Assembly (NCBI RefSeq): GCF_029892045.1
Contig: NZ_CP120369.1
Location: forward strand, 310,001-374,000
DNA: 64,000 nt
Direction of reading: 5' to 3'
Origin: Sinorhizobium numidicum
Lineage (GTDB): Bacteria > Pseudomonadota > Alphaproteobacteria > Rhizobiales > Rhizobiaceae
Part shown: positions 5,712 through 37,569 of the stretch, piece by piece
Numbering within the stretch: the stretch's first letter is position 1
How the letters are laid out: every line of letters begins with the position of its first letter
Program-made: the position numbers and the translations under genes
Notes under the pieces: generated by a model
What the model saw: the letters and a program-made list of their open reading frames with translations, nothing else
The model's database searches: none
What the model was told of the DNA's origin: nothing

Positions 5712-8700
5712 TTATTGCGACGGGTGGTTACGTCTGCATATTCGGTCATACAGGTCCCCGAACGTCGCCGCCTCAATTATCTCATCCAATTGCGGCGGCC
5801 TCCAGCGGTCGCCTTTATCCAAATTAGCTTGGAGCTCTGCGGCGATCAGGCTGTCTCCCCCAACATCAAAGAAGTTATCTTCCAAGCCTATTTCGTTGGA
5901 GCCAATAATAGTTTTGATTTCATCAAGAAAAATTCTCCTCGGATCATCGTTGCTAAACATGTTGACCTTTCCTATTTCGACTTCTTCTTTTGGAAAAGAT
6001 TTTTTATCTTCTTGTGGCTGCTCGTCCGCCGTCGTGAACACCTCCCCCCTTTGCCGTTCTTGCCCCCCCGGGTGCCGCCAAACCGTCGGGCCTGCAGGCT
6101 GATCGTCCGGCCAGCATCGGTGACCGTCGAACGAGTACGTTGGAAGGGGAATGCGACGGCGAGTACCGAACGGTTCCAATTGATCACTGGCCCGTTTCCA
6201 ATCCACCGCAACACCCGCGGCCCAGAGTGCCCCAAGGCATTCCAAAAGGACATGGCGGTCCGTCGACTCTTCATCGTTCTCGTCGCGCGCGGCTGGGACA
6301 ATCGATGGAATTCGGGTCTTGCAATCCTCCGGGTTGATCGCCCCATGTGCGAAACGCGCCAGATTGCGCGAAGGGCCAAGGTCAATGAGCGCAGTTGCAC
6401 CAGTTGCGACCACGGCCTGGATAGCGCGATCGAATCGGATAGTCTCAGTTGCTTGCCCACTCCAGTGGCTCTCCGGCAGGGGTACTTTCACACGATGCAG
6501 GGATCCTGAATTCAGGGCTATGGCGACATTCGGCAGAGCCTTTTCGAGTACGCGGGCCTGCACGTCGATCATGTCAGTCGCTTGTTTCATCAGCGGAGAA
6601 TGACTGGGGACGCCGGCTGTATTAAGGAGTTTGTTGGGAATCTCTCGCTGTTTGAGACTTTCCTGAAGCCTTTCCAAAAATTCCCACTTGCCGGTGAACA
6701 CGACGCTCGTGTTTGAGTTCACGACACCGACGCCGATCTCGCCAGCTTCAGCTCGATCACGCCAAGCGTCCTCCGTGAGGATACGCTCAGCCTCACTCGG
6801 GCAGCATTCAGCCGAAAGCATAGCACCATCGATACTAAGATTCGCCATCGACCGGCTCCGAATGACCGACAGCCCAACAGCATCTTCTACTTTTAGAATG
6901 CCTGCTAGAGTGGCCACAATGTATTCGCTCATGCTGTGTCCGACGAGATAATCGGGCAGCACGCCGAACAGTTCTAGCAAACGCGCCATGGCGTATTGCA
7001 CGGAGAAAATCATGACATTGATTTCTTCGAAGGAAGCCGTCCGATTTTCGTCCTCTTCCCCAAACATGACCGTTTCCAGGTCACGATCGAGAACCCGGCG
7101 ACTAGCGTCGGCACAAGTCAGGAAAGCATTGCGAAAGTCTGGCACGTGATCAAAGAGTTCCTTGAACATTCGCGGGTGCTGCACTCCGCAGCCGGGCAGC
7201 ATGAACCCAATCGACGGCGAGGAAAGGGTCCGATCAGCCGCACGATCCACTTCTTCTTCCAACCTCGCGATTGCCGTATCTAAGTTGCGCGCCACAATGA
7301 CGGTTCGATGCTCAAACTGGCATCTCGCCACGCGTAGTGTGTGCGCGACGTCCCCAAGATGGATATCGCGGTTACGCCGCAGGAACGCGGCCAGATTCCG
7401 GCAAGCCCGGCTTAGCGCCGAAGGGGTCTTTGCGGATAGGCAAAGAGCGTGAGATCCCCGTTCGACCGATCCGGGCCAAGCCCTGGCATTGTCGCTGTCC
7501 CATTCTTGCAGCACGACATGGCAGTTGGTTCCGCCAACACCGAGGCCAGTAACTCCGGCCGTTCGCGAGCGTCCAGGCGGACGGCGCCAAGGTCTAAGCT
7601 GCTCATTGATGAAGAAGGGTGTGTCTTCCAGACCTAGATCTTCGTTCAGCCGGTTGATTTTGATGGTCGGTGGGATTACTCCGTGCTGAAGGGTGAGAAC
7701 TGTCTTGATAAAGCTCGCGACCCCTGAGGCGACGTCGGCATGCCCGATATTCGGTTTAATTGACCCCAGCGCACAGGCGTGCCCCGTCTTCTCTTGCTCC
7801 GCGAAGACCTCTGCCAGAGCGCGGATCTCGATCGGGTCGCCGACCTTGGTGCCGGTCCCATGAGTTTCGATATATTCGACATCTTCAGGGCCGAGTGCCG
7901 CAGAGGCAAGTGCTTGGCGCACAACTTCGGCCTGGCCTCGCGCGCTAGGCGCCGAGAAGGACGATTTGGCGCGGCCGTCGTTGTTAATGGCACATCCTTT
8001 TACCACCGCGTGGATCGGGTCGTTCGCCTCCAGCGCGTCTTCAAGGCGCTTAAGAACGACAACGCCTACCCCATCTCCAAACACCGTGCCACTGGCATCG
8101 GCATCAAAGGCTCGGCACACACCGTCCGACGAATTAATGTAGCCCTTGACAAACTGATACCCCGCTTGAGGGAAGGTGATACTCGAGCCCCCTGCCAACG
8201 CGATCTCGCAATAGCCGGCCGCGAGCGACTGAGCGGCGACCGCGATCGCCACTAACCCAGTTGAGCATGAGGTTTGCACCGCAATGCTTGGCCCGTTGAG
8301 GTTAAGCATGTAGGACACGCGGGAGGCAAGGTAGTCCTTCTCGTTGCCGAGCTCCGTCAGGAAAGCGAGTGGCGCGTTGTTGGGATCGCTGGGGCCGCCC
8401 TTCAAATGGTAGCGTAGATAGAGCGAGGAAGAAGCACCTGCAAACACTCCGGTACGGCCTTCATGCTGGGTTGGCGCATATCCGGCCGACTCAAGGGCCT
8501 TCCAACAGCATTCGAGAAACAGCCGATGCTGCGGGTCCATTAACGTTGCCTCACGCCTCGAAAGGTTCCAGAAATCCGGATCGAAAAGGTCCACATCGTT
8601 GAGATGGGCGCCCACGCGCACGTAATCGGGGCGCTTCAGGACGGCCTCCGGGATGCCCCGGGCCTTGAGTTCCTGCGTGGAGAGCGACGTGATCGAGCAC

Positions 8701-11444
8701 ACCCCTTGGCAGAGGTTCTCCCACAGGGCGTCCACCGTCTCCGCGCCAGGAAAACGCGCGGCCATACCAATCACCGCAATGTCAATACCGGGGCTGCGTC
8801 GACGGTCCAACGCCTTCACATGCGCCCCACCCGGCAAGACTGGCGGCGTTTTGGGGAGCTTGGCGTTTTGGGGACGTCCCTGCTCAACAACGCGTTTGCG
8901 GAGAAGAGCCGCGAGTTCGTTAAAGGTCGGATTGAGGAAGATCTCCACTACGCGGAGCTCCACCTTCAGACTCTTACGAAGGTGCGTACAGAGACCGGCA
9001 GCCAGAAGGGAGGTTCCGCCGCAATCGAAAAAGTTGTCGCCTGGATCAGCACCTTCGGCCTGGAGAAGGTCGCGCCAAGCTGCGAGAAGTGCCGGTTCAA
9101 CCTCGTCGGTACCGGTCACCGGAGCGCACGCCTCTTGCACGAGCGCGCGAAGGCGCGACCTATCAAGTTTCCCGTTGGCCGCTATGGGCAATTCGGTCAG
9201 AGCAACGAACTCTGACGGAATTGCGTAGTGCGGCACCTCAGACTTCAAATACGCCCGCAAAGAAGCCTGCCACCCCTTGCACGGATTCGACAAGACTACA
9301 TAGGCGATCAGCCGATCAGGCTGGCCGGTCGTCGGATTGAGCTCCGGCAATACGGCGGCGGAGCGGACGCCGGCGTATTGAAGCAAAGCAGCTTCTACAG
9401 ACGCTGGAACGACGCTGTATCCCCGGATCTTCACCATGAAAGCGCAGCGCCCCAAGATCTCTAGTTGGCCGCCGGGCAGCATGCGGCCAAGATCGCCCGT
9501 GCGGAACATCGTGCCTTCAGCGCGGAACGGGTCGGGAAGGAACCTTTCGCGCGTCATCTCCGGGCTGTCGAGATATCCATGAGCCAAGACATCGCCGCCG
9601 ACGAAGACCTCGCCCGAGAAGCCCAGTGGGACGGGATCGCGTTGCTCCTCGAGGATATAGACGCTGACATTGTACTGAGGCGGACCGACCGGTGCGACCT
9701 TTTGTATTGTCGCCGGATCGATCTCGCTCAAGTCAATATGCGCGATATCACATGCCTCCGCGGCGCCGTAGTAATTGATGATTCTGACGTGCGGCAGCGC
9801 ATCCCTCACACGCGCAAGCAACGCTGCCGTTAGTACCTCGCCTGATAGGTAGATAAATCGGAGATCCGAAAGGCGGGAACGGACATCGAGGAAACCGCTG
9901 CTGAGAAGAACATCCAACAGTGAAGGAGTTAGCAATATTCTGGAAATTCGATTTCGTTCCAGGTAGTCGACCAGCCGGTGCGGATCGTAGATAACGTCAT
10001 CAGGGATCAGATAGGCTGGAATCCCGGCGAGGATCGGCCGCATCATGGCCCCGAAGAGATTGACCGCCTCACGCTCATCAGACGCATATGGCAGCGCGTA
10101 ATAGCGCCACTGGTAAGAGGATACAACGCTTCGATGAGGACAGACAATCCCTTTTGGTTCACCAGTGGTGCCAGACGAAAATGAAATCTCGGCCGGCGCA
10201 TCGAGATCCACCGTTGGGGGATTGGCCGGACTGGCCTTGCCAAGTTGTGCTTCCCATTCCTTGTCGAGCGAAACCGCAATACCAGACCAGTCAGGCGGAA
10301 GCTTAGCCGCGAACCGGTTGTTAGTGACGACGATTTCAACACATGCTTTCTGAAGTATTCTCTTTATCGCAGCGACAGGCACTGCTTTGTCAAGCAAAAC
10401 GTAGGCCGCCCCTGTCTTAAGAATACCGAACAATGCGACAGCGTATTCAGGTGAAGTATCCATCAGGAGACCCACGCGGGAGCCTCGGCTCTGACCATGT
10501 CCGAGGAGGTGCCTGGACAGAATGTCGCTTAGTTCGTCGAGTTCGCGATATGTGATGGTCGCAGCCTCTGAAACGATCGCAGGACTGTCGGGGGTGAGAG
10601 CCGCTTGTTTGCGGAATTGCTCATGCAGCGTTAGATTATTATAAGGGAGGACTTCGCCGTGTTGGATGGAAGCTGGAAGTTGTCCCTTCACCTCGCCAAC
10701 CTCGCGCAGGAGGCTAGACACCACCTCCTCCGTCATGGAATGAGTGAAAAAGTGATCGCCATCAAACATAATCCGAGCGAAGCGCGACGTCGTAAGCCGA
10801 TGCCATTCGTCTAGGTCATTGGCATTGATATCGTCCTTAACTCCGCCCATTGCGGTGATTGCTGCCTTGAGAGGCGTTGGCAGGTTTCGATCGTAAGTCT
10901 CCACAAGTTCGAAGTCGGCCCTCATGGGCGGCAAAATGAATTCCAGTAGCAATTTCTCGTTTGCCAGCGCCTTTGTGGGGACCATGCCAAGGGTACGCAC
11001 CACATCGGCTAACTTATCATCCGCGTAGGTATACATCGGCGGCTCTTCCGGGGGCAGGTCGGCCGACGGGTGAGCAGACACGACAACATGGAAGGGAGAT
11101 GGCCGACCGGCCTGCTCCAGAGAGCGAGCAATCTCGTAGGCCACGAGGGCGCCTGCGCTATGGCCGAAGAAAACAAAAGGCCTATCGCTGTACGCCTGGA
11201 GCGCCTCGATGACCATGGGTACTAGTACGTCCATGCTGCGGATGGCCGCCTCCGCAGACCGTTTGCCGCGCCCGGGAAGATCCAGGCAAATAAGCTCAAC
11301 GTCGTCGGGGAGATAGTCAGACCAGGTACGGAATGAGCGCATACTGCCCCCTCCATGAGGGAAACAAATTATCCGATACGACGGCTCAAGTGAACTCTTT
11401 ACGACGCTAAGCAGTCCGTTGGCTTTACCAGGAATTTGTTCCAT
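5712..11444 (-). CDS. Hybrid NRPS-PKS megasynthase, TE-A-PCP-KS-AT-ACP
   Basis: This 1910-residue multienzyme would load an acid and extend it by one ketide unit. Residues about 20-250 form a type II thioesterase-like domain with GHSAG (Ser96) and GDHFF (His231), in an unusual N-terminal position. An adenylation domain spans about 275-745, with SSGTTGEPKG and YRTGD-like FRTGD. A carrier domain has GGTSL (Ser812). The ketosynthase is about 886-1315, with Cys1060 in TSCSTGL and His1195 and His1235. The acyltransferase is about 1413-1705; Ser1504 sits in GHSMSE and His1615 is present, but GHSxG is broken and FPGQG reads LPGCG. A final carrier has GGDSL (Ser1865). There is no condensation, ketoreductase or dehydratase domain. 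By alignment to GrsA-PheA, the A domain has Val in place of Asp235, so it probably takes an acid that is not an alpha-amino acid. Its chain would pass to the C-A-PCP-KS-AT-ACP-TE protein at 30.5-37.6 kb. No docking domain is evident. Confidence 0.93.
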   Translation of the reverse strand: MEQIPGKANGLLSVVKSSLEPSYRIICFPHGGGSMRSFRTWSDYLPDDVELICLDLPGRGKRSAEAAIRSMDVLVPMVIEALQAYSDRPFVFFGHSAGALVAYEIARSLEQAGRPSPFHVVVSAHPSADLPPEEPPMYTYADDKLADVVRTLGMVPTKALANEKLLLEFILPPMRADFELVETYDRNLPTPLKAAITAMGGVKDDINANDLDEWHRLTTSRFARIMFDGDHFFTHSMTEEVVSSLLREVGEVKGQLPASIQHGEVLPYNNLTLHEQFRKQAALTPDSPAIVSEAATITYRELDELSDILSRHLLGHGQSRGSRVGLLMDTSPEYAVALFGILKTGAAYVLLDKAVPVAAIKRILQKACVEIVVTNNRFAAKLPPDWSGIAVSLDKEWEAQLGKASPANPPTVDLDAPAEISFSSGTTGEPKGIVCPHRSVVSSYQWRYYALPYASDEREAVNLFGAMMRPILAGIPAYLIPDDVIYDPHRLVDYLERNRISRILLTPSLLDVLLSSGFLDVRSRLSDLRFIYLSGEVLTAALLARVRDALPHVRIINYYGAAEACDIAHIDLSEIDPATIQKVAPVGPPQYNVSVYILEEQRDPVPLGFSGEVFVGGDVLAHGYLDSPEMTRERFLPDPFRAEGTMFRTGDLGRMLPGGQLEILGRCAFMVKIRGYSVVPASVEAALLQYAGVRSAAVLPELNPTTGQPDRLIAYVVLSNPCKGWQASLRAYLKSEVPHYAIPSEFVALTELPIAANGKLDRSRLRALVQEACAPVTGTDEVEPALLAAWRDLLQAEGADPGDNFFDCGGTSLLAAGLCTHLRKSLKVELRVVEIFLNPTFNELAALLRKRVVEQGRPQNAKLPKTPPVLPGGAHVKALDRRRSPGIDIAVIGMAARFPGAETVDALWENLCQGVCSITSLSTQELKARGIPEAVLKRPDYVRVGAHLNDVDLFDPDFWNLSRREATLMDPQHRLFLECCWKALESAGYAPTQHEGRTGVFAGASSSLYLRYHLKGGPSDPNNAPLAFLTELGNEKDYLASRVSYMLNLNGPSIAVQTSCSTGLVAIAVAAQSLAAGYCEIALAGGSSITFPQAGYQFVKGYINSSDGVCRAFDADASGTVFGDGVGVVVLKRLEDALEANDPIHAVVKGCAINNDGRAKSSFSAPSARGQAEVVRQALASAALGPEDVEYIETHGTGTKVGDPIEIRALAEVFAEQEKTGHACALGSIKPNIGHADVASGVASFIKTVLTLQHGVIPPTIKINRLNEDLGLEDTPFFINEQLRPWRRPPGRSRTAGVTGLGVGGTNCHVVLQEWDSDNARAWPGSVERGSHALCLSAKTPSALSRACRNLAAFLRRNRDIHLGDVAHTLRVARCQFEHRTVIVARNLDTAIARLEEEVDRAADRTLSSPSIGFMLPGCGVQHPRMFKELFDHVPDFRNAFLTCADASRRVLDRDLETVMFGEEDENRTASFEEINVMIFSVQYAMARLLELFGVLPDYLVGHSMSEYIVATLAGILKVEDAVGLSVIRSRSMANLSIDGAMLSAECCPSEAERILTEDAWRDRAEAGEIGVGVVNSNTSVVFTGKWEFLERLQESLKQREIPNKLLNTAGVPSHSPLMKQATDMIDVQARVLEKALPNVAIALNSGSLHRVKVPLPESHWSGQATETIRFDRAIQAVVATGATALIDLGPSRNLARFAHGAINPEDCKTRIPSIVPAARDENDEESTDRHVLLECLGALWAAGVAVDWKRASDQLEPFGTRRRIPLPTYSFDGHRCWPDDQPAGPTVWRHPGGQERQRGEVFTTADEQPQEDKKSFPKEEVEIGKVNMFSNDDPRRIFLDEIKTIIGSNEIGLEDNFFDVGGDSLIAAELQANLDKGDRWRPPQLDEIIEAATFGDLYDRICRRNHPSQ

Positions 11445-12689: not shown

Positions 12690-12805
12690 TTAGCGCTGGT
12701 AGTTCCAAAGCATGAGCGCCTCGATATCGCTGTTTGGCCAGCCATTGGCGACGCGCTCGAGGGTCTGTGTGAGCCAGGCGTGCGGATCGACCTGGTTCAT
12801 TTTGG
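12690..12805 (-). pseudogene. IS66-family transposase (TnpC) C-terminal fragment
   Basis: The - strand reads TAKMNQVDPHAWL, then LERVANGWPN and ends LWNYQR-stop. This is the usual last 35 residues of IS66 TnpC proteins. The frame meets a stop just upstream at about 12805, so only the tail of the gene survives next to the recombinase fragment. Confidence 0.65.
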
Positions 12806-12824
12806 CGGTTTATGCCGCCCGCCG

Positions 12825-12916
12825 AACTATGCCGAACGGGCGTCGGAGCAACGAGCCGTTTGCGCACACGTGCTGCTGTTTGGCTGGGTGCCACTCCGAT
12901 TCCATTCGGCATAGTT
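12825..12916. repeat. 92-bp segment bounded by perfect 12-bp inverted repeat, recombinase-associated
   Basis: AACTATGCCGAA at 12825-12836 is the exact reverse complement of TTCGGCATAGTT at 12905-12916. The right arm ends 7 bp from the stop codon of the recombinase fragment at 12924. A segment of the same size and position follows the next recombinase (13181-13273). Confidence 0.6.
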
Positions 12917-12923
12917 TCCTGCC

Positions 12924-17743: not shown

Positions 17744-19126
17744 TCACGTCGCGGCTCGCTCCAAGACCCGACGTCTTTGCGCCAAAGCGTGATGCAGAAC
17801 CTCGGCTTGGTCGACCCTGGTCAACCGCCCGCCTTTCATGACAAGCTTTCCGTCGATTATGACTACATCGACCGGGATTTGCGACGACGAAAGCGCGAGC
17901 AACCCCCCCACCTTTTCCATAGCAGTGTGCGTTATGTCTTCGGACGCCCTCACTACGATATCCGCACGTTTGCCGACCGAGAGCGTTCCTAGCTCGTCAC
18001 TAAACCCTATATTCCGCGCGGCATTAGCGGTCTGCATGTAAAACGGCTCCGCGTCGTCCAGGCGCTGGCCAGAGGTCGCCGACAGAAGCAGGCTTGCCAT
18101 GCCCGCGGTTCCGAGAGCGTGATACATCGTGGTGTCTATGCCAAGCGAAACGCACACGCTTTGCTCGATCAGCTTTGGCATCCGGCAAGGGTCCGCCGGA
18201 TGCACCGCCCGGTGCAACGCATTATTCGGACACCAGGTTATGCCGGGCCGGTGTTCGACTACGAGCTCCGCATCCAGGTCGCTCATCGAATTCATGTGGC
18301 TGAGTGTCGTTCTCTCATGAAGCGCTCCCAATTGATGAAGCCGCGCGACGCCGGATTTGCCATACTTCCTGGTTTCGAGCTCCCGCCACATATGGATGAA
18401 ACCTTGATGCTGGTTGAAAATCACGCCGGCCTCCAGCGCTAGGTCGATTGCATCGCGCGTCAAGGCATCTGTCGCGGAGCCCTCGCCATAGAGGCAGACA
18501 TAGCCGGTTACCAGCGGATCCTTATCCGCGTTCCTCGTGAGCTCACGTTCAAGACGTCTGATGACGGTAGCTCGGTCTGCAGGCGCCCTCTCCAGTAGCC
18601 GTTTCGTGATCATGCCTGGAGCGTGACTCTCGAAATCGCTCACGTCGTCCCAACCGAACGGCGCCGAGACCATGCCACGCATCCCAATCCGCTGCAGCGC
18701 CGAGGCAAATGCATCCGTCTCAAACACTGTCCCGGCCTCCATAAAGCACGTGTAGCCTCTGCGCAGCAGCGCAACGGCCGCCGCCGCAACCAGCGCGTCG
18801 GTCGACTCGTCGTCCGTCTGAACCTTCACGTCGGCGTATGACACCTTCGATTGGGAAATCTCATCAATCGAGACGGGCAGGCTATGCAGCGCGATTGAGG
18901 TTGCGTGAATATGGGTATCAATCATGCCCGGGTGAACGATGGCGCCCCCGGCATCAATGAAGTCCGGCGACAGGTAGCGTTCCGATAGTGCACGTGTATC
19001 GCCTATCGCCAAGATGCGACCGCCGTCGACGGCGATCGCGCCATCCTTGATGTAAGGCGATGCGCGTTCACCGGTGAAGATTTCGCCATTGACTATCAGG
19101 TGATCGATCTGTTGCTTGACGGCCAT
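17744..19126 (-). CDS. Amidohydrolase family protein (cytosine deaminase/chlorohydrolase-like)
   Basis: This 460-residue protein is a metal-dependent amidohydrolase of the TrzA/AtzA/cytosine-deaminase type, which hydrolyses amide or amidine bonds. It has the metal motif DTHIH (His72, His74), NQHQGF near residue 238 and SHMNSMSD, with GIDTT near the usual final aspartate. The beta-sandwich ends are present: an N-terminal IVNGEIFTG and a C-terminal GKRADIVV. The length is normal and it seems intact. It is followed on the same strand by nothing obvious, and preceded at about 215 bp by the first ATP-grasp gene. It may open or trim a cyclic or amide intermediate of the nearby biosynthetic genes, but a catabolic role is equally possible. 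Confidence 0.85.
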   Translation of the reverse strand: MAVKQQIDHLIVNGEIFTGERASPYIKDGAIAVDGGRILAIGDTRALSERYLSPDFIDAGGAIVHPGMIDTHIHATSIALHSLPVSIDEISQSKVSYADVKVQTDDESTDALVAAAAVALLRRGYTCFMEAGTVFETDAFASALQRIGMRGMVSAPFGWDDVSDFESHAPGMITKRLLERAPADRATVIRRLERELTRNADKDPLVTGYVCLYGEGSATDALTRDAIDLALEAGVIFNQHQGFIHMWRELETRKYGKSGVARLHQLGALHERTTLSHMNSMSDLDAELVVEHRPGITWCPNNALHRAVHPADPCRMPKLIEQSVCVSLGIDTTMYHALGTAGMASLLLSATSGQRLDDAEPFYMQTANAARNIGFSDELGTLSVGKRADIVVRASEDITHTAMEKVGGLLALSSSQIPVDVVIIDGKLVMKGGRLTRVDQAEVLHHALAQRRRVLERAAT

Positions 19127-26734: not shown

Positions 26735-28250
26735 CAACGAGCTGAGCTTGCTTACGGAACCTCGGATGCAAGCATCATCGTTGATCCTCGTCTATCTGCT
26801 CTTGATACGATAGTCGGCGACGGTCATCTTCTACTTGGCGCCGCCTGGTGCGGCTGCGTGAGTGGACTCCGACTATTCCTGCTCGCCAACGGTCGGGAAT
26901 GGTGTGATCGACCAACCAATTAAATCGACGGCACGCTGAAGTGCCACTTCGGTCTGCGCACGGCTGGGTAAAGCGGCGGTGACATGTCCGATCGTGTCTC
27001 GGTCATCGCCTTTTCTGACGATCATGGCCCTAGGCTTAACATAAATTTTAACGTCGGCGACACCTGCTACTGCAGCCGCCCGACTCTCGCCCTCGATCCA
27101 ATCGAGAATTCCGTCGCGATCAGGGTTTAGGTATCGCGTGGCGGCAGTGTTCGAAGTCTTCTTGCGTAAATCCCATTCCTCGCCGATGACGAGCTTGATA
27201 TGCTCGGTGACGAGATCTACACCGTAAGCCAGTTGAACCCGTCGAGGAGCAGTCCCACCTATAAGACGCGGATTGACTTCAATGACGACTGGACCACGCT
27301 TCGTCCACCGGAGCTCAATGTTCGTCGGCCCCCAGCCAAGGCCGAGAGCGTGCAAACAGCTCAGCGAAATATCGGCGATACGTTTGTGCTCATAGTCAGT
27401 CAGCGAGGCCGGGGAGATGGCCCCACGAAAGACAAAATGCGGTGGGGGATCGAAGTCAGCGCTGGAAACGCAAATAACCTCATTTCCCATCACGTCAGCC
27501 CTATAGTGTGGGCCGTGTGCGAACTCTTCGACCAGTATCCTCGGCGAAGACCGCCATACATATTTCCCGCCCAATAGATAGGCCGCATGTTCGCCCAACT
27601 CGCTGGCGCTGCGACATAATCGGACACCGCTGCTGCCGCTGCCTATGGCTGGCTTCAGAATTACCGGGAGGCCGATTTCCGCGGCAAAGCCTTCAACCTC
27701 CGTCGCATTCGCTGCAACGCGATAGGCGGGAACTGGAACGCCGGCCTCCTCGAGGAGCTGACGTTGGGTAAATTTGTCGCAGCATCGTTCAATCGATGCG
27801 GGGTTCGGTCCTGGTAGGCTGAAATGTTCGCAGAGCTTGCCAACTGTCGCATAGAAAGCCTCCTCGGAACCCGTTATTCCAGCAATGTCATAGGTCGCCC
27901 GCAGTCGGTGACATTCGTGGATCAGCGCAGTACAACTCTCTGTATCGACCCGGACCGCCTCAATCCCCTCCCCCGCGAGATAGTCGTACTGAGCAGGATC
28001 AGCCGAAAAAGTAATTGGGTGAAGCCCAAGACGCTGAGCCGCTTCGATGTATCGCAGACCGTTCCCCGGGTGTCCTTCAACCAGAACGAGCGCTCTTCCT
28101 GCCATGGGATGTCTACCTCCGTTTTCGCGCTGTGCAGTGGTCCGAAGCGTAAATGAGCAATTCAGCATATTTTAGCTGGCCCTCAGACCTTGCGATGAAG
28201 GTAACATTGTCCGCGTGCTGCGCTTGCGAACATTTGTGAATTTATTCGCA
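26735..28250. repeat. Segmental duplication, copy 2 (partner 19240-20780)
   Basis: This is the second copy of the duplicated block carrying an ATP-grasp gene. Flanking non-coding sequence is similar on both sides, as described for copy 1. Confidence 0.65.
26873..28105 (-). CDS. ATP-grasp ligase, copy 2
   Basis: This 410-residue ATP-grasp ligase is a diverged paralogue of the gene at 19342-20610. It keeps LPVILKPAIGSGSSGV (ATP lysine and glycine loop), ILVEEF and VVIEVNPRLIGG (metal ligands). Differences are concentrated in the segment RADVMGNEVICVSSADF, where copy 1 has GALIMGQEVVGMEAADF, and in the C-terminal quarter, which hints at different substrates. An upstream start at 28168 is possible, but ATG 28105 has GGAGGT eight bases before it and gives the same N-terminus as copy 1. 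The reading frame is intact. It stands alone on its strand between IS relics and the region of the nif-type promoter. Confidence 0.88.
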   Translation of the reverse strand: MAGRALVLVEGHPGNGLRYIEAAQRLGLHPITFSADPAQYDYLAGEGIEAVRVDTESCTALIHECHRLRATYDIAGITGSEEAFYATVGKLCEHFSLPGPNPASIERCCDKFTQRQLLEEAGVPVPAYRVAANATEVEGFAAEIGLPVILKPAIGSGSSGVRLCRSASELGEHAAYLLGGKYVWRSSPRILVEEFAHGPHYRADVMGNEVICVSSADFDPPPHFVFRGAISPASLTDYEHKRIADISLSCLHALGLGWGPTNIELRWTKRGPVVIEVNPRLIGGTAPRRVQLAYGVDLVTEHIKLVIGEEWDLRKKTSNTAATRYLNPDRDGILDWIEGESRAAAVAGVADVKIYVKPRAMIVRKGDDRDTIGHVTAALPSRAQTEVALQRAVDLIGWSITPFPTVGEQE

Positions 28251-28740: not shown

Positions 28741-28858
28741 TGTCGCGTCCACGACACGGTCATGTTCGGCATGATACCTGCTGCGCAAAAGTTAAGCGAT
28801 TGGCCCAACATGCAGAAAATCGTCTGAGTTCATTTCTCGCGGTTGGCACGAATCTTGA
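28741..28858 (+). promoter_or_regulatory. Candidate NifA/sigma-54 promoter module A
   Basis: TGTCGCGTCCACGACA (28741-28756) fits the NifA upstream site TGT-N10-ACA. After 86 bp, TTGGCACGAATCTTGA (28843-28858) fits the -24 part of a sigma-54 promoter, but the -12 dinucleotide is GA where GC is usual. Two other modules in this window have the same layout and the same GA (51766-51886 and 52216-52337). It points toward the frame at 28914 and the regulator at 29455. Confidence 0.5.
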
Positions 28859-28913
28859 GTGTAGTCATCGCGCTGGAACTGCCTACCAATAATCATAGCG
28901 GGCGAGGACGCCG

Positions 28914-29441: not shown

Positions 29442-29454
29442 GGGGGCTGTGCTC

Positions 29455-30162
29455 ATGAAGCCACTGGTCCTGATCTGTTCAGAGGATCCCGAATTTTATC
29501 TATTCTTCAGCCACGTCCTGGAGGTAGACGGCTTCGCGAGCGATCTGGCTGACGGTTTGGAGGAAGCGGTCCGGCAGGTCACTGAGCGGGAGCCGCAAGC
29601 CGTTATACTCGACTGCCAACCGGCGAGCGCGGTAGGCCCTGCTGTCTGTGCCCGTCTCAAAAACGAGTCGCAGACTGGCGCCATGCCCGTAGTCGCCCTG
29701 ATCGCGCCAGGCGCCGGGCCCCAGCATCTGGATCTACTAAAGGCGGGCATTGACGAAAGCTTCTTGCGACCCTTCGCACCAGCCAAGCTAATCGCCTACT
29801 TGCGCGATGAACTAGCGATGGCGCGGCTGGGCTTCGATAGCGACGAGAGAAGCCGGCCGCTGATCTGGGGCGACCTCGAGATGCGGCTCGCCAGTCACCA
29901 GATACGTTGCTGCAACGGCCAACGGATCCATCTGAGCTCGATCGAGTTCAACCTGCTGCGCCATCTAATCGAGAACCGCGGCAAGGTGTGCAGCCGCGAC
30001 GAACTGATCGAGGCCGCTTGGCCAGCTAACATTCATGTCGAAGCGCGCACCGTCGATGTCCATATCAGCCGGCTGAGAAGGGCCGTTGGGAGCGTTTCGG
30101 CCCACAACGGCATTCGAACTATACGCTCCGCCGGTTATACCTTAGACGAGGGGGACGTCTGA
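29455..30162 (+). CDS. OmpR/PhoB-type response regulator with atypical receiver
   Basis: This 235-residue protein has a receiver domain (1-115) and a winged-helix DNA-binding domain (about 135-232). The latter has LSSIEFNLLRHLIENRGKVCSRDELIEAAW and RTVDVHISRLRRAVG. The receiver keeps an acidic pocket (SED) and Asp53 in VILDCQP. The conserved lysine is arginine (FLRPF) and the Thr/Ser position is alanine (ALIAPG), so normal phosphorelay switching is doubtful. No sensor kinase is next to it. Rhizobial TtsI regulators of type III secretion belong to the same broad family, but I cannot assign it to them. ATG 29455 is preferred over GTG 29449 because GAGGGGG lies eight bases before it. A nif-type promoter lies 600 bp upstream, and the synthase gene downstream is convergent. 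Confidence 0.85.
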   Translation: MKPLVLICSEDPEFYLFFSHVLEVDGFASDLADGLEEAVRQVTEREPQAVILDCQPASAVGPAVCARLKNESQTGAMPVVALIAPGAGPQHLDLLKAGIDESFLRPFAPAKLIAYLRDELAMARLGFDSDERSRPLIWGDLEMRLASHQIRCCNGQRIHLSSIEFNLLRHLIENRGKVCSRDELIEAAWPANIHVEARTVDVHISRLRRAVGSVSAHNGIRTIRSAGYTLDEGDV

Positions 30163-30519: not shown

Positions 30520-33500
30520 TCAGTTGTTTGGAATGAGATACTTATCAAGCTTGGTTGCGAGGATGCTCACATTCGGCGGAGCGACCATAGTATAATGATC
30601 ACCCGGCACGCTTTGAATTTCCAAGCGTCCCCTGGCGAATTGCTTCCACCCGAGATCACCATTGTGTTGATTGTTGGATATGCGGAGCCCCTTCTTGGCC
30701 GTAAAAAGAACGGACCTGCAGTCGTTGGGCCGAGGCGTATATTCATGTAGTGCAATTCTGTTCGCCTCGGCAACTGTCAGGATATAGTTGAGTTGCGTTT
30801 CGCTCATCTCCTTAATGTTGCCTGCTTGGGTTCCGAAATCAAGCAAGGCAGCGACCTGACGCTCACGGTCGATCAGCTTCAGTTTTTTCCAATGTTTCGC
30901 CAGCGCGGGGAAAAGCATGCTCAAGACGACAACTCGCTCGCTCAGCCAATCTGGAATAGGGACATTGCCGAGAAGGGCTTGGCGGTCTGCGCGCTCTTCC
31001 TGCGTGTGAAGCGCTTTGGCATCAAGAAGTCCGAGTATTGCTATCTCCTCGCCAGCATCGCGTAATTGACAGGCCATTTCCCAAGCGATGCTACCGCCCA
31101 TCGAGTGGCCGACAAGCTGATAAGGACCACGTTGTTGGACGGACTTGATAGCATGAAGATATTCCCGCGCCATCTCCGAAATGCTTAGGTGAGGACTCGC
31201 TTCGCCGTGCAGACCGCGTGCCTGTAGGCCGTACAGTGGCTGCTCCGGGCCCAGTGCTTTAGCAAGAGGCGTATAGTGGAGTACATGTCCGCCAAAAGGG
31301 TGCGGGCAAAACAAAGGGGGCCGCAACCCGCCGGTTTGTATCGGGACCAATGTGCTATAAGCCGCGCTTCTATCCGTCGTCGACAGGGCTATCGCGAGCG
31401 CTCTTGGTGTCTGATGTTTCAGCAGAAGAGAAACAGCCACTTTCTCTCCCGTAAGTTCCTCAATGCAATTGATGACGCTCAACGCACTCAGAGAATCGCC
31501 ACCAAGATCAAAGAAGCTGTCCGTCGGGGTAATCTCACTTGATCCCAAAATCTCGCGGTAGACCGCCGCGATTTTGTGCTCCAAAGCCGCCTCAGCGGAT
31601 ATGTCGCCACCAATTGAACTGCGTGCTTCTTCGGCCCCAGCCTGAGCGACGTCCTCAGTATCAGATCGATTCGATTTCTTCTTTCCCTTATGCTTGTTAG
31701 CGGCAGCCGTAGGGAGCCAGTAGCGTTTGCGGTCAAAAGGATAAGGGGGGAGCGGCATACGCTGGAGGGGGTGATGGTAGTGCAGTGCAGACCAATCAAT
31801 GCAAACACCGCAGGTCCAAAGGTTGGCCAGCGTCTGTAACAGTCTCGCATGATCGCCTTGGCCATGATCGCGTCCTGGCAAGGCTGAAAAGGCGACGAGG
31901 CTACGCGGGCTGCCGTTTGATTTGAGCCGCCTTGAATGTGAGGTCAGGGCTGCGCCTGGACCCATTTCAATAAATAAATCGTGGCCCGACTGCACCAGCC
32001 GGTCGAAGGCCAAGTGGAACTGCACTGTTTCGCGCAGATTGCGGACCCAGTAGTCAGCAGGCGGCGCGTCCGCCTCAAGCCAGTCACCTGTCACCGTTGA
32101 CATGAAAGGTATTTGCGGCGCATGCAACGCGAATTGTTTTGCGTGGACCCTAAATTCCGGCAGGATTGGATCCAGCAGGGCTGAATGGACGGCATGACTT
32201 GCGTGTATTCGTTTGCTTGTTATGGATTTCGCCGCTAACCGAGCATGAAACGCTGCGATCTCGGGTGCGGCCCCCGAAACAACGCACTGACGCGGCCCAT
32301 TTATTGCTGCTAGGGATAGGTTCGCATTCCAATGCGGCTGGAGCTCTTCGGGCGACAGTCCGACTGCAACAATTCCGCCGGCGGGCAGACGCGAGCTTAG
32401 CCGTCCCCTTATCAGCGTCAACCGGATGGCGTCTGGTAGTGAAATAATGCCCGCTGTGTGAGCGGCAGCATATTCTCCGATGCTGTGCCCGATCACAGCT
32501 GCAGGGAAAATGCCCCATGACATGAAGAGCTTCGCCATTGCGTATTGTGTAGCGAGGACAACTGTCTGTATGACCGTTTCTAGCTCAGGCGCAAGCTCGC
32601 CATCGGATTTGCATTCCCCGTAAAGCAGTGAGCGAAAATCAATATGTGCGAACTCCTTAATCCACGTTGCGCATTCATCGATGGCGCTGCGGAATACCGG
32701 CTCTTGCTCATAGATCTCCCGACCCATTCCAACCTGTTGCCCCCCCTGCCCCGAGAACATGAACACGATGGGGTGCTCACTAGTTGACACCTCTCGCGAC
32801 GCGCTCTCATGCAAACTCGCCTGATCAACTTGCTCGGCCAGTTGCGCCAGATCGGATCCCACGAAACTTGTGCGATATCTTAGAGCGGCTCGGCCCTTTT
32901 GCAGAGTGTATGCGATATTTGCTGCCTTGTGCTGTATATCGCTTCGGCGCATGAAGGCGGCGAGCTGCCGAAGGATTTCGGTCAGCGCCGATCTACTCGC
33001 GGCCGATACCGGGAAAACGTGCAGCTTGCTATCGCCTTCGTCCCCAGTACGCCCCGGAGCCTCCTCAAGAACAACATGCGCATTCGTGCCGCCAATGCCG
33101 AAAGAGCTGACTCCGCCGCGCCGTGGCGCATGACCTTTGTGCCAAGCGGTGCACGTCCTGTTTACAAACACCGGGCTGTCCTGAAAGTCGATATTCGGAT
33201 TAGGTTCATCAAAATGCAAGCTGGGAGGAATGATGCCCTTGTCCAGCATTGTGGCGACTTTGATCAAACCCGTTGCACCAGCGGCGGTATCAAGATGACC
33301 TATATTTGGCTTCACCGAACCCAACGCGCAGAATTGTTTTCTCCCGGTGTGGGAACGAAAGGCCTTGGTCAGACCAGAGACCTCGATGGGGTCGCCAAGG
33401 TAGGTTCCCGTCCCATGCGCCTCCACATAACTAACGGTGTCCGCCGAGACATCAGCGTCGTCGAGAGCAGCTAGGATTGCTGCAGCCTGTCCGTCGGCGC

Positions 33501-36500
33501 TGGGGGCGGTGAACCCTACCTTGGCGGCCCCATCATTGTTGACAGCGGTCCCCTTTATGACTGCCCAGATATAGTCGCCGTCTTTGCAGGCATCGCTCAT
33601 GCGCTTGAGAACGACTACCGCGGCTCCGCTGCCTCTCACCGTTCCTTGCGCTTTGGCATCGAACGCTCGGCAGTGCCCGTCAGGAGACAAGATATGGCCT
33701 TGCTGATGGAGGTAACCTTTTCCATGGGGCAGGGAAATTGACGCACCGCCTGCCAACGCCATGTCGCAATCGTTGCTACGCAGGCTCTGACACGCCAGGT
33801 GGACAGCAACTAGCGAAGTGGAGCAGGCCGTCTGAACTGACAAACAAGGCCCAGTCAAGTTGAGCTTATAGGCGATTCGTGTGGCGGTGAAATCGCGGCC
33901 ATTGAGAATGTGGACCTGCAGTTTTTCTGAATCCAGCAGATTTTGACCTCCCTCGCTGCCAGCCATATAATGATTGGCGCCCACACCCGCAAACACGCCA
34001 ACGCGACAGTCCCCATCACGGGACCCATATCCGGCGTGGTCGAGAGCTTGGTACGCTGTTTCCAATAGAATTCTCTGTTGCGGATCCATCCACATTGCCT
34101 CTTTGGGCGAGATGCCGAAGAAGGCTGCATCAAACAGGTCAACTCCACTAATGACGCCTTCGCGCCTCACGTAATTTTGCTTGTTAAAAGTGTCTGGATC
34201 GACGCCGGCATTTCGCAGTGTCTGTTCATCCAGATCCTTGATGGACTCTGTACCTTTAACAAGATTGTTCCAGAACTGATCTACGTCCTCCGCGCCGGGG
34301 AATCTCCCGGCCATACCGATGATCGCAACAGCATTCCGGTCGTGGTCAGGTTCGTTCGTATTTGCGGCCAAGGCAATCGGATTCTTCGAATCTTGAGCAG
34401 TGTGAGAAGCAGCTGAAATATTGGCCAAATGCAGCGCGAGTGTTCTTATAGTGGGGTGCTGAAACAGGTCCAAAATTTTGTAATTCACACCTAAGCGTGC
34501 GTGAATGAGCGCCTGAACCTGAACAATAGCGAGGGAATCTCCGCCAATTTCAAAGAAATTCTCTTCTGCCCCCACAGAGTCCAGCATCAGTACATCCTTC
34601 CAGATGTCGGCCAATTCCTTCTGCAGTCTGATTGAGGGCAAAACGGGGGCGTTTGGTCTCGAGTTGCCTCTCGGGTTAGGAAGAGCGCGCCTATCGACCT
34701 TGCCGCTGTGATTGGTCGGCATCTGCGCGAGGAATACGAATTGTGATGGGATCATGTGGCTTGGCAGCAGACCGCGCAGAAAGGCGCGAAGATCGTCGGC
34801 ATTTTCCGGACTCTCGCCTCGGCCTACCACATAGGCTGTAAGCTTTCTATTTTCATTGGGATAGTCTTTCAGCGTAACACAGCAGGCCTTGACGTTTTTG
34901 TGCTCCATCAGACACTGTTCAATTTCCGCAAGTTCAACCCGCATGCCGCGGATCTTGACCTGTTCGTCCTTCCGGCCCAAGAACTCAATCGAGCCGTCGG
35001 ACCGATACCGGGCCTGATCCCCTGTTCTGTAGAGCCTGGAGTGAGGTTCATCATCGAATGGGTTTGGTCGGAATAGTTCGCATGTGAGTTCGTCACGGTT
35101 GAGGTAGCCACGAGCAATGCCGACCCCACTGATGTAAAGTTCACCGGCGGCACCAATTGGTACCGGTGCGCCATACCGATCGAGAATGTAAGCCTTGGTG
35201 TTGATCGCGGGCCGCCCGATTGGCGGTTTCTTACCATCAGCCTTCACCTCTGTCCTGATACAATAAACGGTTGTTTCTGTGGGTCCATACGAATTGAAAA
35301 TCCGGCGGTTCTCACCCCATCGCTCGATAAGGCTCGACGGTAAGGGCTCTCCACCTGACTTAATCGTGGTGAGGTCAGGAAGATCAGCTGACGGCAAGCT
35401 AGCCCACGCTGTCGGAGTGAGGCCGGCAGCGGTGATACGCTCACGACGCATGAACTCGGCAAGTTCTGCCCCCGGCAGCGACGCGGCTGGGGGCGCCAAA
35501 CACAATTGGCCACCAGAAGATAAGGCCAGCATAAAATCAAAGACCGATGCATCAAATCCGCACGAAGCGAACTGCAATACTCGGCTATCTGGCCCCAGTT
35601 GATAGGTCCGCCTTAGATCCTCCGCCATATTGCAGGCACTGCGATGTTCAACCATCACGCCTTTCGGCTTACCCATGGAACCTGACGTGTAGATTACATA
35701 AGCCAAATCAGGGGGGCCAGCGGGGCAGTGCGGAGGCGTTACATCATGCAGAGAAATCTCGCGCTCATCCCTGTCAAGGAGAACCAACGCGCATCTATTC
35801 ACATCTTCAAGATTCAGGCATGATTCGTCTTTCCCAAACGCTTGTTCTGCAAGCTCGGTCTTGGTGATGACCGCAGCGGCACCAGCGTCCTGCACAATAA
35901 AGCGCAGGCGCTGGGCTGGCAGACGCGGGTCGAGAGGGAGATAGGCGGCCCCCGCTTTCAAAACTCCTACAAAGCTGGCAATGAGATCGCACGAGCGCTC
36001 AACGAGAACGCCTACCACGTGTCCAGGGCGGACACCTTTTGAAATTAGATGATGTGCAATCCTGTTTGCCTTTTGCTCAAGTGCGGCATAGCTGAGCGCC
36101 TCCGATGGGCAGCTCACAGCGATGTTGTCTGGGTAAGTGGCGGCCTGCGCTTCGATCAGGTTGTGGAGGCAAGTGTCGGACGGAAAAGGTTCACTCGTCT
36201 CGTTCCAATCCTTGAGAATCTTGCGCTCTTCCTCCGGGGTCAGAAGTCTATAATCGCCTATCCGTCGCGTTGGTGCATGTGCAATCGCCTCCAGCAGCAC
36301 ACAATAGTGCCTCGCAAGCTGCTCGATGGTACTGGCATCCCACAACTCGGCATTGTACACCACATCAAGGCGGAGGCTTTCTTCTCCGGCTAGGATTCGG
36401 AAATCAAGATCGATCCAGATCTCGGTCTCGCAAAATCGGATCTGTGCAGGCAAGCCGGAAAGATCGACGTCGTATCGCCTGAAGCCAAGAGAACTTATCG

Positions 36501-37569
36501 CCTCCGGTGTGAAGTTGAAAACCGCCTGCGCGAGCGGATCCCGACCAGGTACACGGGGTAGCTTAAGTCTCTCTAACAGCAGGGGAAGAGGAAAATGCTG
36601 GTGCCTGTGCGCGCAACGTGTCAGGTGACGGACCTGCCGTAGATGATCGGTAAAAATGGGATTTCCGGAAAGGTCCTGCCGTAAAGCGCCCATGGCAACA
36701 AAGTAGCCGAAAGTCCCGAAAAAATCTTCTGTCGGCCGACCGAGGCGTGGCATGTAAAGAGTGATGACGTCCTGGTCACTATAGCGATGCAGCAGGACGT
36801 AATAGGCAGCGAGTAGGACCGTAGCGAGGTTCACTTTTTCTTTATGCGCGAGTTGCTCCAATCGCGCGACCAAGGACATATTCAGATCCTTGGAGAAAAC
36901 TGATCCGGTGTGCGCCGCGAGCGCAGCTCGCGGTCTGTCGGTGGGAAGGGCGAGGTCGGGCTCGTGATCGACAAACTGGCCGCGCCAGTAGGCCCACATT
37001 CGTTCTCCGTCGTCGCCGACAAGGTGGTTTTCCTGCCAAGCCACAAAGTCCTCGTAGGAAGCCGCCGCAGCCAGCCTCGGCATCTCCGTCTTGCCGCAGC
37101 ACGCCTGATAGAGACTGCCGAATTCCTGTAGAAAAGTGCGGATACTGTAAGCGTCGGAAATGACGTGATGGAAATTGAGGAGGAGGATCTCTTCCGTGGC
37201 ACTGCGGATGAACAAGTGCGCGCGAAATACCGGTCCCTGTTCGAGATCGAAAGGGACGCGAGCTTCCGCAGCAATAGATTGATAGAACTCGGCTTCGTTG
37301 AAACTCTGCAGCGGAACGACTTGCAAGTTCAAGGTGGCTGTCTCGTGGATGCGCTGAACGACGCGCCCGTCTTCCTGGTGAAAGGTTGTGCGCAGCATTC
37401 CGTGGCGATCAATCAGAAGTTGAAGCGAGCGGCGCAAAGCAGTAAGGTCGAACGTTGCCTTTATGCGTAGCTCGACCGGCAGGTTGTATTCGCTGCCGGC
37501 CGGTCTTTTTTGATGATCCAGCCAAAGGCCCATCTGACCGTGCGACAGCGGACGGGTAACGTACTCCAT
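30520..37569 (-). CDS. Hybrid NRPS-PKS megasynthase, C-A-PCP-KS-AT-ACP-TE
   Basis: This 2349-residue multienzyme would add one amino acid and one ketide unit and then release the product. The condensation domain (about 1-440) has HHVISDA at 134-140, with Ala in place of the usual Gly. The adenylation domain (about 460-950) has YTSGSMGKPKG, FDASVFDF with the alpha-amino-binding Asp, and YRTGD. The carrier serine is Ser1012 (GGDSL). The ketosynthase has Cys1249 in TACSTSL and His1385 and His1425. The acyltransferase has FSGQG, GHSIGE (Ser1696) and ASHAVHS, which resembles malonyl-CoA types. A second carrier has Ser2026 (GGDSL). The thioesterase (about 2085-2349) has GHSMGG (Ser2156) and GDHYTM. 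There is no ketoreductase. By eye the A-domain pocket code is D-A-F-G-K-G-S-V-Y-K, which matches no code I know. I start at ATG 37569, with GGAG seven bases before it, rather than 37602. It should act after the TE-A-PCP-KS-AT-ACP protein. Confidence 0.95.
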   Translation of the reverse strand: MEYVTRPLSHGQMGLWLDHQKRPAGSEYNLPVELRIKATFDLTALRRSLQLLIDRHGMLRTTFHQEDGRVVQRIHETATLNLQVVPLQSFNEAEFYQSIAAEARVPFDLEQGPVFRAHLFIRSATEEILLLNFHHVISDAYSIRTFLQEFGSLYQACCGKTEMPRLAAAASYEDFVAWQENHLVGDDGERMWAYWRGQFVDHEPDLALPTDRPRAALAAHTGSVFSKDLNMSLVARLEQLAHKEKVNLATVLLAAYYVLLHRYSDQDVITLYMPRLGRPTEDFFGTFGYFVAMGALRQDLSGNPIFTDHLRQVRHLTRCAHRHQHFPLPLLLERLKLPRVPGRDPLAQAVFNFTPEAISSLGFRRYDVDLSGLPAQIRFCETEIWIDLDFRILAGEESLRLDVVYNAELWDASTIEQLARHYCVLLEAIAHAPTRRIGDYRLLTPEEERKILKDWNETSEPFPSDTCLHNLIEAQAATYPDNIAVSCPSEALSYAALEQKANRIAHHLISKGVRPGHVVGVLVERSCDLIASFVGVLKAGAAYLPLDPRLPAQRLRFIVQDAGAAAVITKTELAEQAFGKDESCLNLEDVNRCALVLLDRDEREISLHDVTPPHCPAGPPDLAYVIYTSGSMGKPKGVMVEHRSACNMAEDLRRTYQLGPDSRVLQFASCGFDASVFDFMLALSSGGQLCLAPPAASLPGAELAEFMRRERITAAGLTPTAWASLPSADLPDLTTIKSGGEPLPSSLIERWGENRRIFNSYGPTETTVYCIRTEVKADGKKPPIGRPAINTKAYILDRYGAPVPIGAAGELYISGVGIARGYLNRDELTCELFRPNPFDDEPHSRLYRTGDQARYRSDGSIEFLGRKDEQVKIRGMRVELAEIEQCLMEHKNVKACCVTLKDYPNENRKLTAYVVGRGESPENADDLRAFLRGLLPSHMIPSQFVFLAQMPTNHSGKVDRRALPNPRGNSRPNAPVLPSIRLQKELADIWKDVLMLDSVGAEENFFEIGGDSLAIVQVQALIHARLGVNYKILDLFQHPTIRTLALHLANISAASHTAQDSKNPIALAANTNEPDHDRNAVAIIGMAGRFPGAEDVDQFWNNLVKGTESIKDLDEQTLRNAGVDPDTFNKQNYVRREGVISGVDLFDAAFFGISPKEAMWMDPQQRILLETAYQALDHAGYGSRDGDCRVGVFAGVGANHYMAGSEGGQNLLDSEKLQVHILNGRDFTATRIAYKLNLTGPCLSVQTACSTSLVAVHLACQSLRSNDCDMALAGGASISLPHGKGYLHQQGHILSPDGHCRAFDAKAQGTVRGSGAAVVVLKRMSDACKDGDYIWAVIKGTAVNNDGAAKVGFTAPSADGQAAAILAALDDADVSADTVSYVEAHGTGTYLGDPIEVSGLTKAFRSHTGRKQFCALGSVKPNIGHLDTAAGATGLIKVATMLDKGIIPPSLHFDEPNPNIDFQDSPVFVNRTCTAWHKGHAPRRGGVSSFGIGGTNAHVVLEEAPGRTGDEGDSKLHVFPVSAASRSALTEILRQLAAFMRRSDIQHKAANIAYTLQKGRAALRYRTSFVGSDLAQLAEQVDQASLHESASREVSTSEHPIVFMFSGQGGQQVGMGREIYEQEPVFRSAIDECATWIKEFAHIDFRSLLYGECKSDGELAPELETVIQTVVLATQYAMAKLFMSWGIFPAAVIGHSIGEYAAAHTAGIISLPDAIRLTLIRGRLSSRLPAGGIVAVGLSPEELQPHWNANLSLAAINGPRQCVVSGAAPEIAAFHARLAAKSITSKRIHASHAVHSALLDPILPEFRVHAKQFALHAPQIPFMSTVTGDWLEADAPPADYWVRNLRETVQFHLAFDRLVQSGHDLFIEMGPGAALTSHSRRLKSNGSPRSLVAFSALPGRDHGQGDHARLLQTLANLWTCGVCIDWSALHYHHPLQRMPLPPYPFDRKRYWLPTAAANKHKGKKKSNRSDTEDVAQAGAEEARSSIGGDISAEAALEHKIAAVYREILGSSEITPTDSFFDLGGDSLSALSVINCIEELTGEKVAVSLLLKHQTPRALAIALSTTDRSAAYSTLVPIQTGGLRPPLFCPHPFGGHVLHYTPLAKALGPEQPLYGLQARGLHGEASPHLSISEMAREYLHAIKSVQQRGPYQLVGHSMGGSIAWEMACQLRDAGEEIAILGLLDAKALHTQEERADRQALLGNVPIPDWLSERVVVLSMLFPALAKHWKKLKLIDRERQVAALLDFGTQAGNIKEMSETQLNYILTVAEANRIALHEYTPRPNDCRSVLFTAKKGLRISNNQHNGDLGWKQFARGRLEIQSVPGDHYTMVAPPNVSILATKLDKYLIPNN

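Follow-up and report, generated by a model that had tools for sequence, protein, structure and literature searches.

Two apparently separable hybrid peptide-polyketide synthases on a nifH-bearing plasmid of Sinorhizobium numidicum

A 64,000-nucleotide stretch of Sinorhizobium numidicum DNA (assembly GCF_029892045.1, contig NZ_CP120369.1, positions 310,001 to 374,000; the whole stretch is hereafter the window) lies on a 629 kb plasmid that also carries nifH, ~280 kb from the window start, and encodes two large hybrid nonribosomal peptide synthetase-polyketide synthase (NRPS-PKS) proteins, here called P0001 and P0002. We give roughly an even chance to the reading that these neighbors on the plasmid are orphan synthases that can occur independently of each other in legume bacteria with nifH. 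Their pairing is a loose association and not a fixed unit. Judged from its relatives, P0002 is conserved as a single protein. Its probable task is to couple a conserved amino acid with a single malonate, the product leaving as a beta-keto compound or as something like a tetramic acid.

An earlier note on this DNA had read two large minus-strand genes with distinct domain orders, and Pfam returned the same orders. P0001 is thioesterase-adenylation-peptidyl carrier-ketosynthase-acyltransferase-acyl carrier (TE-A-PCP-KS-AT-ACP) and P0002, which begins with a condensation (C) domain, is C-A-PCP-KS-AT-ACP-TE (TE, A, KS, and AT at E 2.5e-29 or better); no ketoreductase (KR) or dehydratase domain was found by Pfam in either. 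Both are uninterrupted open reading frames (ORFs; Table 1), and the ATG start of P0002 is that of the public annotation as well as the end coordinate of the earlier note. The gap between them, described in that note as ~19 kb of exporter, ligase, and insertion sequence (IS) DNA, is indeed so composed and measures 19,075 bases (11445-30519), with an IS630, two IS110 genes, and a Mutator-type transposase piece as mobile DNA alongside an amidohydrolase, two ATP-grasp (L-amino-acid-ligase-like) genes, a major facilitator superfamily (MFS) exporter, and a response regulator. In the public record, plasmid NZ_CP120372.1 of S. numidicum LMG 27395 carries both synthases at 100% identity with unchanged spacing, and the available portion of the type-strain genome paper is silent on these genes (PMC10281163).

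The distribution of the two proteins was analyzed in 179 genomes (33 Sinorhizobium and 146 Mesorhizobium, among which drafts may hide genes), with orthologues called at ≥72% identity. P0002 occurred alone in 9 genomes, P0001 alone in 12, and both together in 2, compared to 0.86 expected (p 0.21), which is not above chance. By genus, Sinorhizobium held P0002 in 7 genomes, P0001 in 3, and both in 2 (p 0.11), and Mesorhizobium held P0002 in 4, P0001 in 11, and both in none. With P0002 found without P0001 in 9/11 genomes and P0001 without P0002 in 12/14, the proposal that the two form one split line is left unsupported, and the joint inheritance expected of line partners was not seen across the 179 genomes. 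The 12 best P0001 genomes, most of which are within the 179, likewise had no P0002 orthologue (0/12, no match above 47%), and a wider sample of the bacterial family, 394 genomes with P0001 in 1 and P0002 in 2, was too sparse to inform. Protein clusters of both families carry the name M. calcicola with a longest contig of 335,449 bases in each, and these names and equal contigs suggest that some Mesorhizobium strains have both proteins. The earlier note had asked for gene order to be compared in other rhizobia, and the region proved to be rearranged: in S. mexicanum, P0001 and P0002 lie ~17 kb apart and face opposite ways, with other genes between. There (L054:21999-35612), an ectoine synthase, ectB, a GNAT protein, a PurD-like ligase, a MATE protein, and a BKACE protein replace the window's genes.

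Among the 120 matches listed for P0002, 53 were at least 67% identical (one being the window's own fragment), with the named relatives belonging to Mesorhizobium, Sinorhizobium/Ensifer, and Paraburkholderia phymatum; one 50% relative has the same Pfam domains. The A-domain pocket code given in Table 1, taken at the usual code positions, was the same in 48 of 55 rows, and the core motif A3 carries a Thr to Met change in the window's own P0002 sequence alone (2 rows). Only five residues stand ahead of the C-domain RPLS motif in 42/55 rows (9 were unscorable). The nearest solved chains to the C-terminal TE are release TEs of NRPSs, EntF, and Pks13, and those to the C domain are Txo2, Txo1, 5u89, and tyrocidine synthetase 3, neighbors that faintly suggest an aminoacyl or peptidyl donor. 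Whole-protein dN/dS was 0.18-0.23. Together with pairwise values of 0.09-0.36 per domain in the P0001 clade without a working KR, and values ≤0.50 in every domain and pair that gave one in the P0001 and P0002 comparisons, this bears out the idea that these NRPS-PKS genes are under purifying selection.

The earlier note assigned one unit to each A and AT domain, and the domains do imply that each module adds a single amino acid and a single malonate and reduces nothing. For P0002, the established rules of NRPS-PKS lines predict a 4-(acylamino)-3-oxo acyl chain. In the proposed pathway, the P0002 A domain would load one specific amino acid (the pocket code being near-constant in relatives), the C domain would attach an acyl or aminoacyl donor supplied in trans, and KS-AT, whose HAVH motif we take to mark malonyl, would add one malonate, the keto group staying unreduced. 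The C-terminal TE would then free a 4-(acylamino)-3-oxo acid, most likely cyclized to an N-acyl tetramic acid, a release like that proposed for the last two modules of the althiomycin synthase, minus the O-methyl group. Given that the althiomycin steps without the methyl would yield an N-acyl tetramic acid, the ring closure suggested by the earlier note appears reasonable, by analogy, for P0002 on its own.

For P0001, the earlier note was right to place a thioesterase at the N-terminus, and its kind can be refined: the best solved chains are the type II enzymes 3qmw/3qmv, RifR, the surfactin thioesterase subunit, and YbtT (E 4e-33 to 2e-19), and PikA4 release TEs match at E 4e-6 only. As type II enzymes match best and release domains far less, this odd N-terminal TE, which has its Ser and His, is by sequence a fused editing (type II) domain, and it would edit mis-loaded carriers. 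The P0001 A domain, with a pocket lacking the amino-group Asp, would activate an unusual acid; in a PDB search with the A domain of its Mesorhizobium amorphae relative, none of 211 matches was close enough for a substrate call. After one extension, P0001, its KR lost, would keep the beta-keto acyl chain bound to the terminal ACP until a partner takes it over.

The earlier note's statement that there is no ketoreductase is true of both proteins, with the qualification that in P0001 the absence is a derived loss and not the original state; the family has, on the evidence of its sequences, repeatedly lost KR and mostly kept the rest. P0001 relatives in M. amorphae and S. mexicanum (2424 and 2418 aa; 77-79% identical to P0001 over the shared part) have a KR between AT and ACP. 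In a first family set of 13 sequences (a 14th was omitted as partial), the window and L009 (Mesorhizobium sp. B2-7-2) share one KR-loss junction and L001 and L002 have others, making three junction types in DNA, and the tree required three KR changes, two of them forced. The KR catalytic Tyr is replaced in KR-bearing neighbors (His in L006 and L008, Phe in L011). A larger set comprised 66 proteins from the best matches listed, including the window's own, of which 10 rows (9 truncated proteins and 1 partial) were removed. Of the 56 full-length proteins, 25 have no KR and 16 have a KR with its Tyr; in the remaining 15 the KR is present but the Tyr is replaced (6 His, 6 Phe, 1 Glu, 1 Arg, 1 Cys). 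On a quick tree of these with SH-aLRT support and a midpoint root, KR absence required five changes, either losses or regains, all forced by well-supported branches, and the window's P0001 belongs to a clade of 16 diverged proteins that all lack the KR. By eye in the protein alignment, the commonest junction occurs in the window's clade and is also seen outside it (P0142, P0145, P0147, and P0153), and other types occur in P0138, P0151, P0155/P0156, and P0169. Since the commonest junction crosses clades and the others differ, separate KR deletions plus some DNA exchange both seem likely from the alignment.

Across the 25 full-length KR-less proteins, all keep the TE Ser and His, both A-domain Lys residues, the PCP Ser, and the KS triad, and 22 keep the AT Ser; P0128, P0141, and P0151 have Thr or Ile at this position and are perhaps fed by another AT, or dying. 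The ACP Ser is kept in 25/25 of these, as in 56/56 of the full-length set, both counted after rows without ACP were removed. Two residues beside the A pocket are missing in 12/25, the window's P0001 among them. Six truncated KR-less rows (P0137, P0139, P0148, P0149, P0165, and P0178) end between AT and ACP, and KR-less L009 is frameshifted in the same stretch. With 6/9 truncated rows being KR-less and ending before the ACP like L009, an appreciable part of the KR-less P0001 genes is, as the sequences read, broken between AT and ACP. The KR-loss linker, where the six relatives stop, seems frameshift-prone. In an Aestuariivirgaceae genome bin (L010:6886-8109), the start of a TauD-type dioxygenase gene is overlapped by a P0001 relative (62%).

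For the KR loss itself, the simplest story is that the KR first died and was then trimmed away repeatedly, with the remaining domains under constraint, and selection for an unreduced keto product in the P0001 family is possible. The stronger form of this idea, in which symbionts were repeatedly selected to stop P0001 beta-keto reduction by KR Tyr changes and then by separate deletions, some of them exchanged, with the rest kept, we regard as doubtful. If true, the unreduced P0001 product would be an as yet unknown rhizobial symbiosis metabolite, alone or joined to the P0002 product.

Both synthases are linked to symbiosis, lying here on the nif replicon and, across their carriers, in nifH-bearing genomes. 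nifH was over the cut-off in 23/23 carriers of P0001 or P0002 compared to 126/179 genomes overall (p 1.6e-4, kinship uncorrected), and nifH and P0002 share a replicon in 5/5 P0002 genomes with five or fewer contigs. Expression in nodules would fit this setting.

Several observations weigh against two working, separable synthases. P0001 has no release domain at its end, and P0002 begins with a C domain and so needs a donor, for which none was found and P0001 is an obvious candidate here; the subtype of that C domain was drawn from a solved-chain ranking. One or both of the window's enzymes may also be weak or dead, P0001 given its two-residue gap at the A pocket and P0002 given its A3 change. 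Among KR-less relatives, loss of the AT Ser in 3/25 and breakage between AT and ACP count the same way, as does the commonest junction outside the window's clade, given that some tree changes may be DNA exchange. Finally, for the althiomycin ring, the available part of the source records that another group, working on Myxococcus, favors a separate ring enzyme (PMC3445576).

One alternative is a single split line, in which the last ACP of P0001 would hand a beta-keto acyl to the P0002 C domain, followed by addition of an amino acid and malonate and release. The parts would fit, as P0001 lacks a C domain and a release TE and P0002 has both, making the domain order compatible with a line that starts without C and ends with TE; the genes share a strand here, the distance between them is 19 kb in S. 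numidicum and ~17 kb in S. mexicanum, 2/3 Sinorhizobium P0001 genomes also carry P0002 (p 0.11 as above), and the M. calcicola-named protein clusters of the two families have equal longest contigs. Furthermore, in Aminobacter anthyllidis a damaged PCP-C-A-PCP-TE gene lies ~20 bases after P0001 (L005:17273-19708), retaining two PCPs, the first 74 matched C positions, the A-domain end, and a TE; it is an NRPS with a large internal deletion and perhaps P0001's former partner, so that P0001 may once have fed an NRPS. The separate occurrence of the two proteins in most carriers, their joint count at chance level, and their opposite orientation in S. mexicanum all argue the other way. Space for an added docking domain also seems scant, with 5 residues before RPLS in most P0002 rows, 45 after the P0001 ACP Ser, and no added terminal region seen at the P0001 C-end or the P0002 N-end, though many colinear lines have no docking region. 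On balance, we consider a split line rather unlikely.

A once-complete cluster dismantled by IS elements and deletions, with at least P0001 useless here, is also unlikely, albeit with more in its favor in view of the dropped KR-less rows that end before the ACP, which make the separable synthases and selection against KR somewhat less probable. IS DNA separates the synthase genes, P0001 has lost its KR and has the A-pocket gap, P0002 has the A3 Thr to Met change, six other KR-less proteins stop in the stretch where the frameshift of KR-less L009 falls, and L012 and L006 are broken. Decay sits poorly, however, with two open frames, with the low dN/dS values, with a ratio of nonsynonymous to synonymous changes on the P0002 window branch (57 to 114) set beside that of S. 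terangae (34 to 83), with the place of the window's P0001 among 16 diverged KR-less proteins, and with the scored TE, A, PCP, and KS residues being kept in all 25 full-length KR-less proteins. Most improbable is reduction in trans, by which a short-chain dehydrogenase/reductase (SDR; 2489-3286) or a 3-hydroxyacyl-CoA dehydrogenase (3713-4585) would replace the lost P0001 KR. Both genes lie downstream of P0001 on the same strand, and SDRs occur near P0001 in L002, L008, and L011, all without a working KR; however, those SDRs are just 30-35% identical to the window's and hardly the same gene, for which the SDR was rejected as a KR substitute, and dehydrogenase relatives (37-40%) also lie near KR-bearing P0001 (S. 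mexicanum, L140). Two separable synthases remain our preferred reading.

Table 1. Features of the window, with positions counted from its first nucleotide.
Feature	Position	Strand	Basis or remark
P0001: type II-like TE - A - PCP - KS - AT - (KR lost) - ACP	5712..11444	-	1910 aa
P0001 TE domain, in sequence closest to type II (editing) enzymes	10710..11375	-	solved-chain ranking
P0001 adenylation domain	9168..10616	-	no Asp at usual amino-group position; two-residue gap just after
P0001 PCP	8901..9092	-	Pfam; Ser in 56/56 full-length proteins
P0001 KS	7656..8783	-	Pfam; Cys-His-His in 56/56 full-length proteins
P0001 AT, motif GHSMSE	6339..7205	-	Ser in 53/56; lost in 3/25 KR-less
P0001 KR loss point, some 510 aa gone	about 6030..6040	-	alignment with KR-bearing relatives
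P0001 terminal ACP	5745..5942	-	second PP-binding stretch (Pfam)
P0002: C-A-PCP-KS-AT-ACP-TE	30520..37602	-	2360 aa (2349 aa from ATG 37569)
P0002 condensation domain (HHVISDA)	36214..37551	-	Pfam
P0002 adenylation domain	34699..36153	-	pocket code DAFGKGSVYK; A3 Thr to Met
P0002 PCP	34426..34617	-	Pfam
P0002 KS	33208..34335	-	Pfam
P0002 AT (GHSIGE, HAVH)	31921..32766	-	Pfam, motifs
P0002 ACP	31378..31590	-	Pfam
P0002 release thioesterase (type I)	30547..31317	-	closest solved chains
AroM/Asp-Glu-racemase-like gene just downstream of P0001	4669..5379	-	84% relative after P0001 in L009
Amidohydrolase	17744..19126	-	47% relative beside P0002 in S. chiapasense
Second ATP-grasp	19342..20610	-	72% identical to first (26873..28168)
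MFS exporter (MFS_3; EntS-like, under that model's cut-off)	21780..23408	+	profile match
ATP-grasp, L-amino-acid-ligase-like	26873..28168	-	relative near P0002 in 6/7 Sinorhizobium loci
NifA-type upstream site + -24/-12 element	28741..28859	+	before ORF 28914-29441 and response regulator
PhoB/OmpR-type response regulator between synthases	29449..30162	+	80% relative in S. terangae
Class III aminotransferase	42649..44022	-	accompanies P0002 in S. chiapasense too, and as fragments in S. terangae
MmgE/PrpD protein	44087..45457	-	accompanies P0002 in S. terangae, S. chiapasense, and S. mexicanum (partial, locus edge) too

The genes around the synthases recur unevenly. The count of Sinorhizobium P0002 loci with an ATP-grasp gene includes the window's own, and the gene is absent only from the seventh locus, L137, a contig of 11 kb. 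Among four P0002 contigs from Mesorhizobium, a single one has a relative (45%, partial), and relatives also lie near P0001 in Mesorhizobium L007 and L008, whose genomes are without P0002. In the window, the two ATP-grasp genes are parted by IS elements and the exporter, and ATP-grasp gave no match to viral contigs. Across the six larger Sinorhizobium P0002 loci, the aminotransferase is present in three, although fragmented in S. terangae, and the MmgE protein in four (once at the edge only). The AroM-like relative in L009 is 64 aa long and at a contig end. Of the 12 best P0001 loci (L001-L012), 6 have a phosphopantetheinyl transferase (PPTase) close by according to one query, with another type in L007; the S. 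numidicum genome has two PPTases, none in the window and one ~100 kb off on the same plasmid. PADLOC gave no match for the six window proteins submitted.

Regulatory patterns were scanned over the whole window. Nod-box-like matches numbered 4 compared to 1.0 expected (3/100 shuffles reach 4), with none ahead of a synthase start, and the tts-box-like scan gave 1 match against 1.5 expected. A general -24/-12 pattern gave 41 matches against 35 expected, and a search for NifA sites by themselves gave 11, with 8.6 expected. When the -24/-12 pattern was refitted to the TTGA form of the plasmid's own nifH promoter, it matched 5 sites, of which 4 are preceded by a NifA site at a distance of 86-89 bases, compared to 0.28 and 0.02 in single-base shuffles of the window. 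None stands directly ahead of P0001 or P0002 in the window; the sites precede the regulator and other genes, and a NifA-type site like that at 28741..28859 is also present in S. terangae. Elsewhere, an ABC-permease fragment is joined to a copy of the nifH promoter and nifH start (51175-51782; 79% over 143 bases) that includes a NifA site and a -24/-12 element, and a further NifA-type promoter (52216-52338, minus strand) lies ~450 bases from the promoter of this copy. More nifH fragments occur at C3:220247 and C3:89493. An ORF for a LuxR-type autoinducer regulator (47495-48606) has a NifA-type promoter (47597) at its start, which may tie quorum sensing to nitrogen fixation.

We know of few rhizobial natural products from such synthases. 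The earlier note recognized no described rhizobial product of this layout, and none was found for P0001 or P0002 in the open-access literature searched; the main text of two P. phymatum nodule papers is free of the terms peptide synthetase, polyketide, and NRPS. By the named records listed, the P0002 family is confined to legume-symbiont genera of two bacterial classes and is nifH-linked. A product of either synthase, should one be found, might turn out to be a new signal, an antibiotic acting in the nodule, or a metal binder. The repeated KR loss in the P0001 family allows one to test how evolution alters a single step of an assembly line.

Among known systems, P0002 most resembles the last two modules of althiomycin Alb5/AlmB, which, in the part of the account available, likewise comprise an amino-acid module, a non-reducing malonyl module, and a type I TE, with the 4-methoxy-pyrrolinone ring proposed to arise from these modules, O-methylation, and the TE (PMC3445576). 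P0002 has the A-PCP, KS-AT-ACP without KR, and type I TE of such an althiomycin-like terminal unit; it differs in being one protein with one amino acid, the likeness to Alb5 is one of layout with no sequence comparison, and no O-methyltransferase was present among the 29 window ORFs scanned with Pfam. The same account describes a separate type II TE thought to edit, comparable to the P0001 TE (PMC3445576). Indeed, the type II thioesterases that outrank release TEs as matches to the P0001 domain (3qmv/3qmw, RifR, the surfactin thioesterase subunit, and YbtT) are free proteins, whereas P0001 has its copy fused at the front of the synthase. Chalkophomycin ChmO/ChmP, as far as the available text describes them, also run from an NRPS to a single malonyl PKS module to give a pyrrolinone, but ChmP has an R0 domain, no TE, and other helpers, unlike P0002 (PMC11085572). 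Closer to home, the Sinorhizobium A-(PCP)-KS-AT-ACP-TE synthases L097 and L071 (~1900 aa; in S. terangae on P0002's plasmid; the PCP of L097 was not scored) share with P0002 one A domain, one PKS module, and a TE, but lack a C domain and are only 33-34% identical to it, and so form a separate family.

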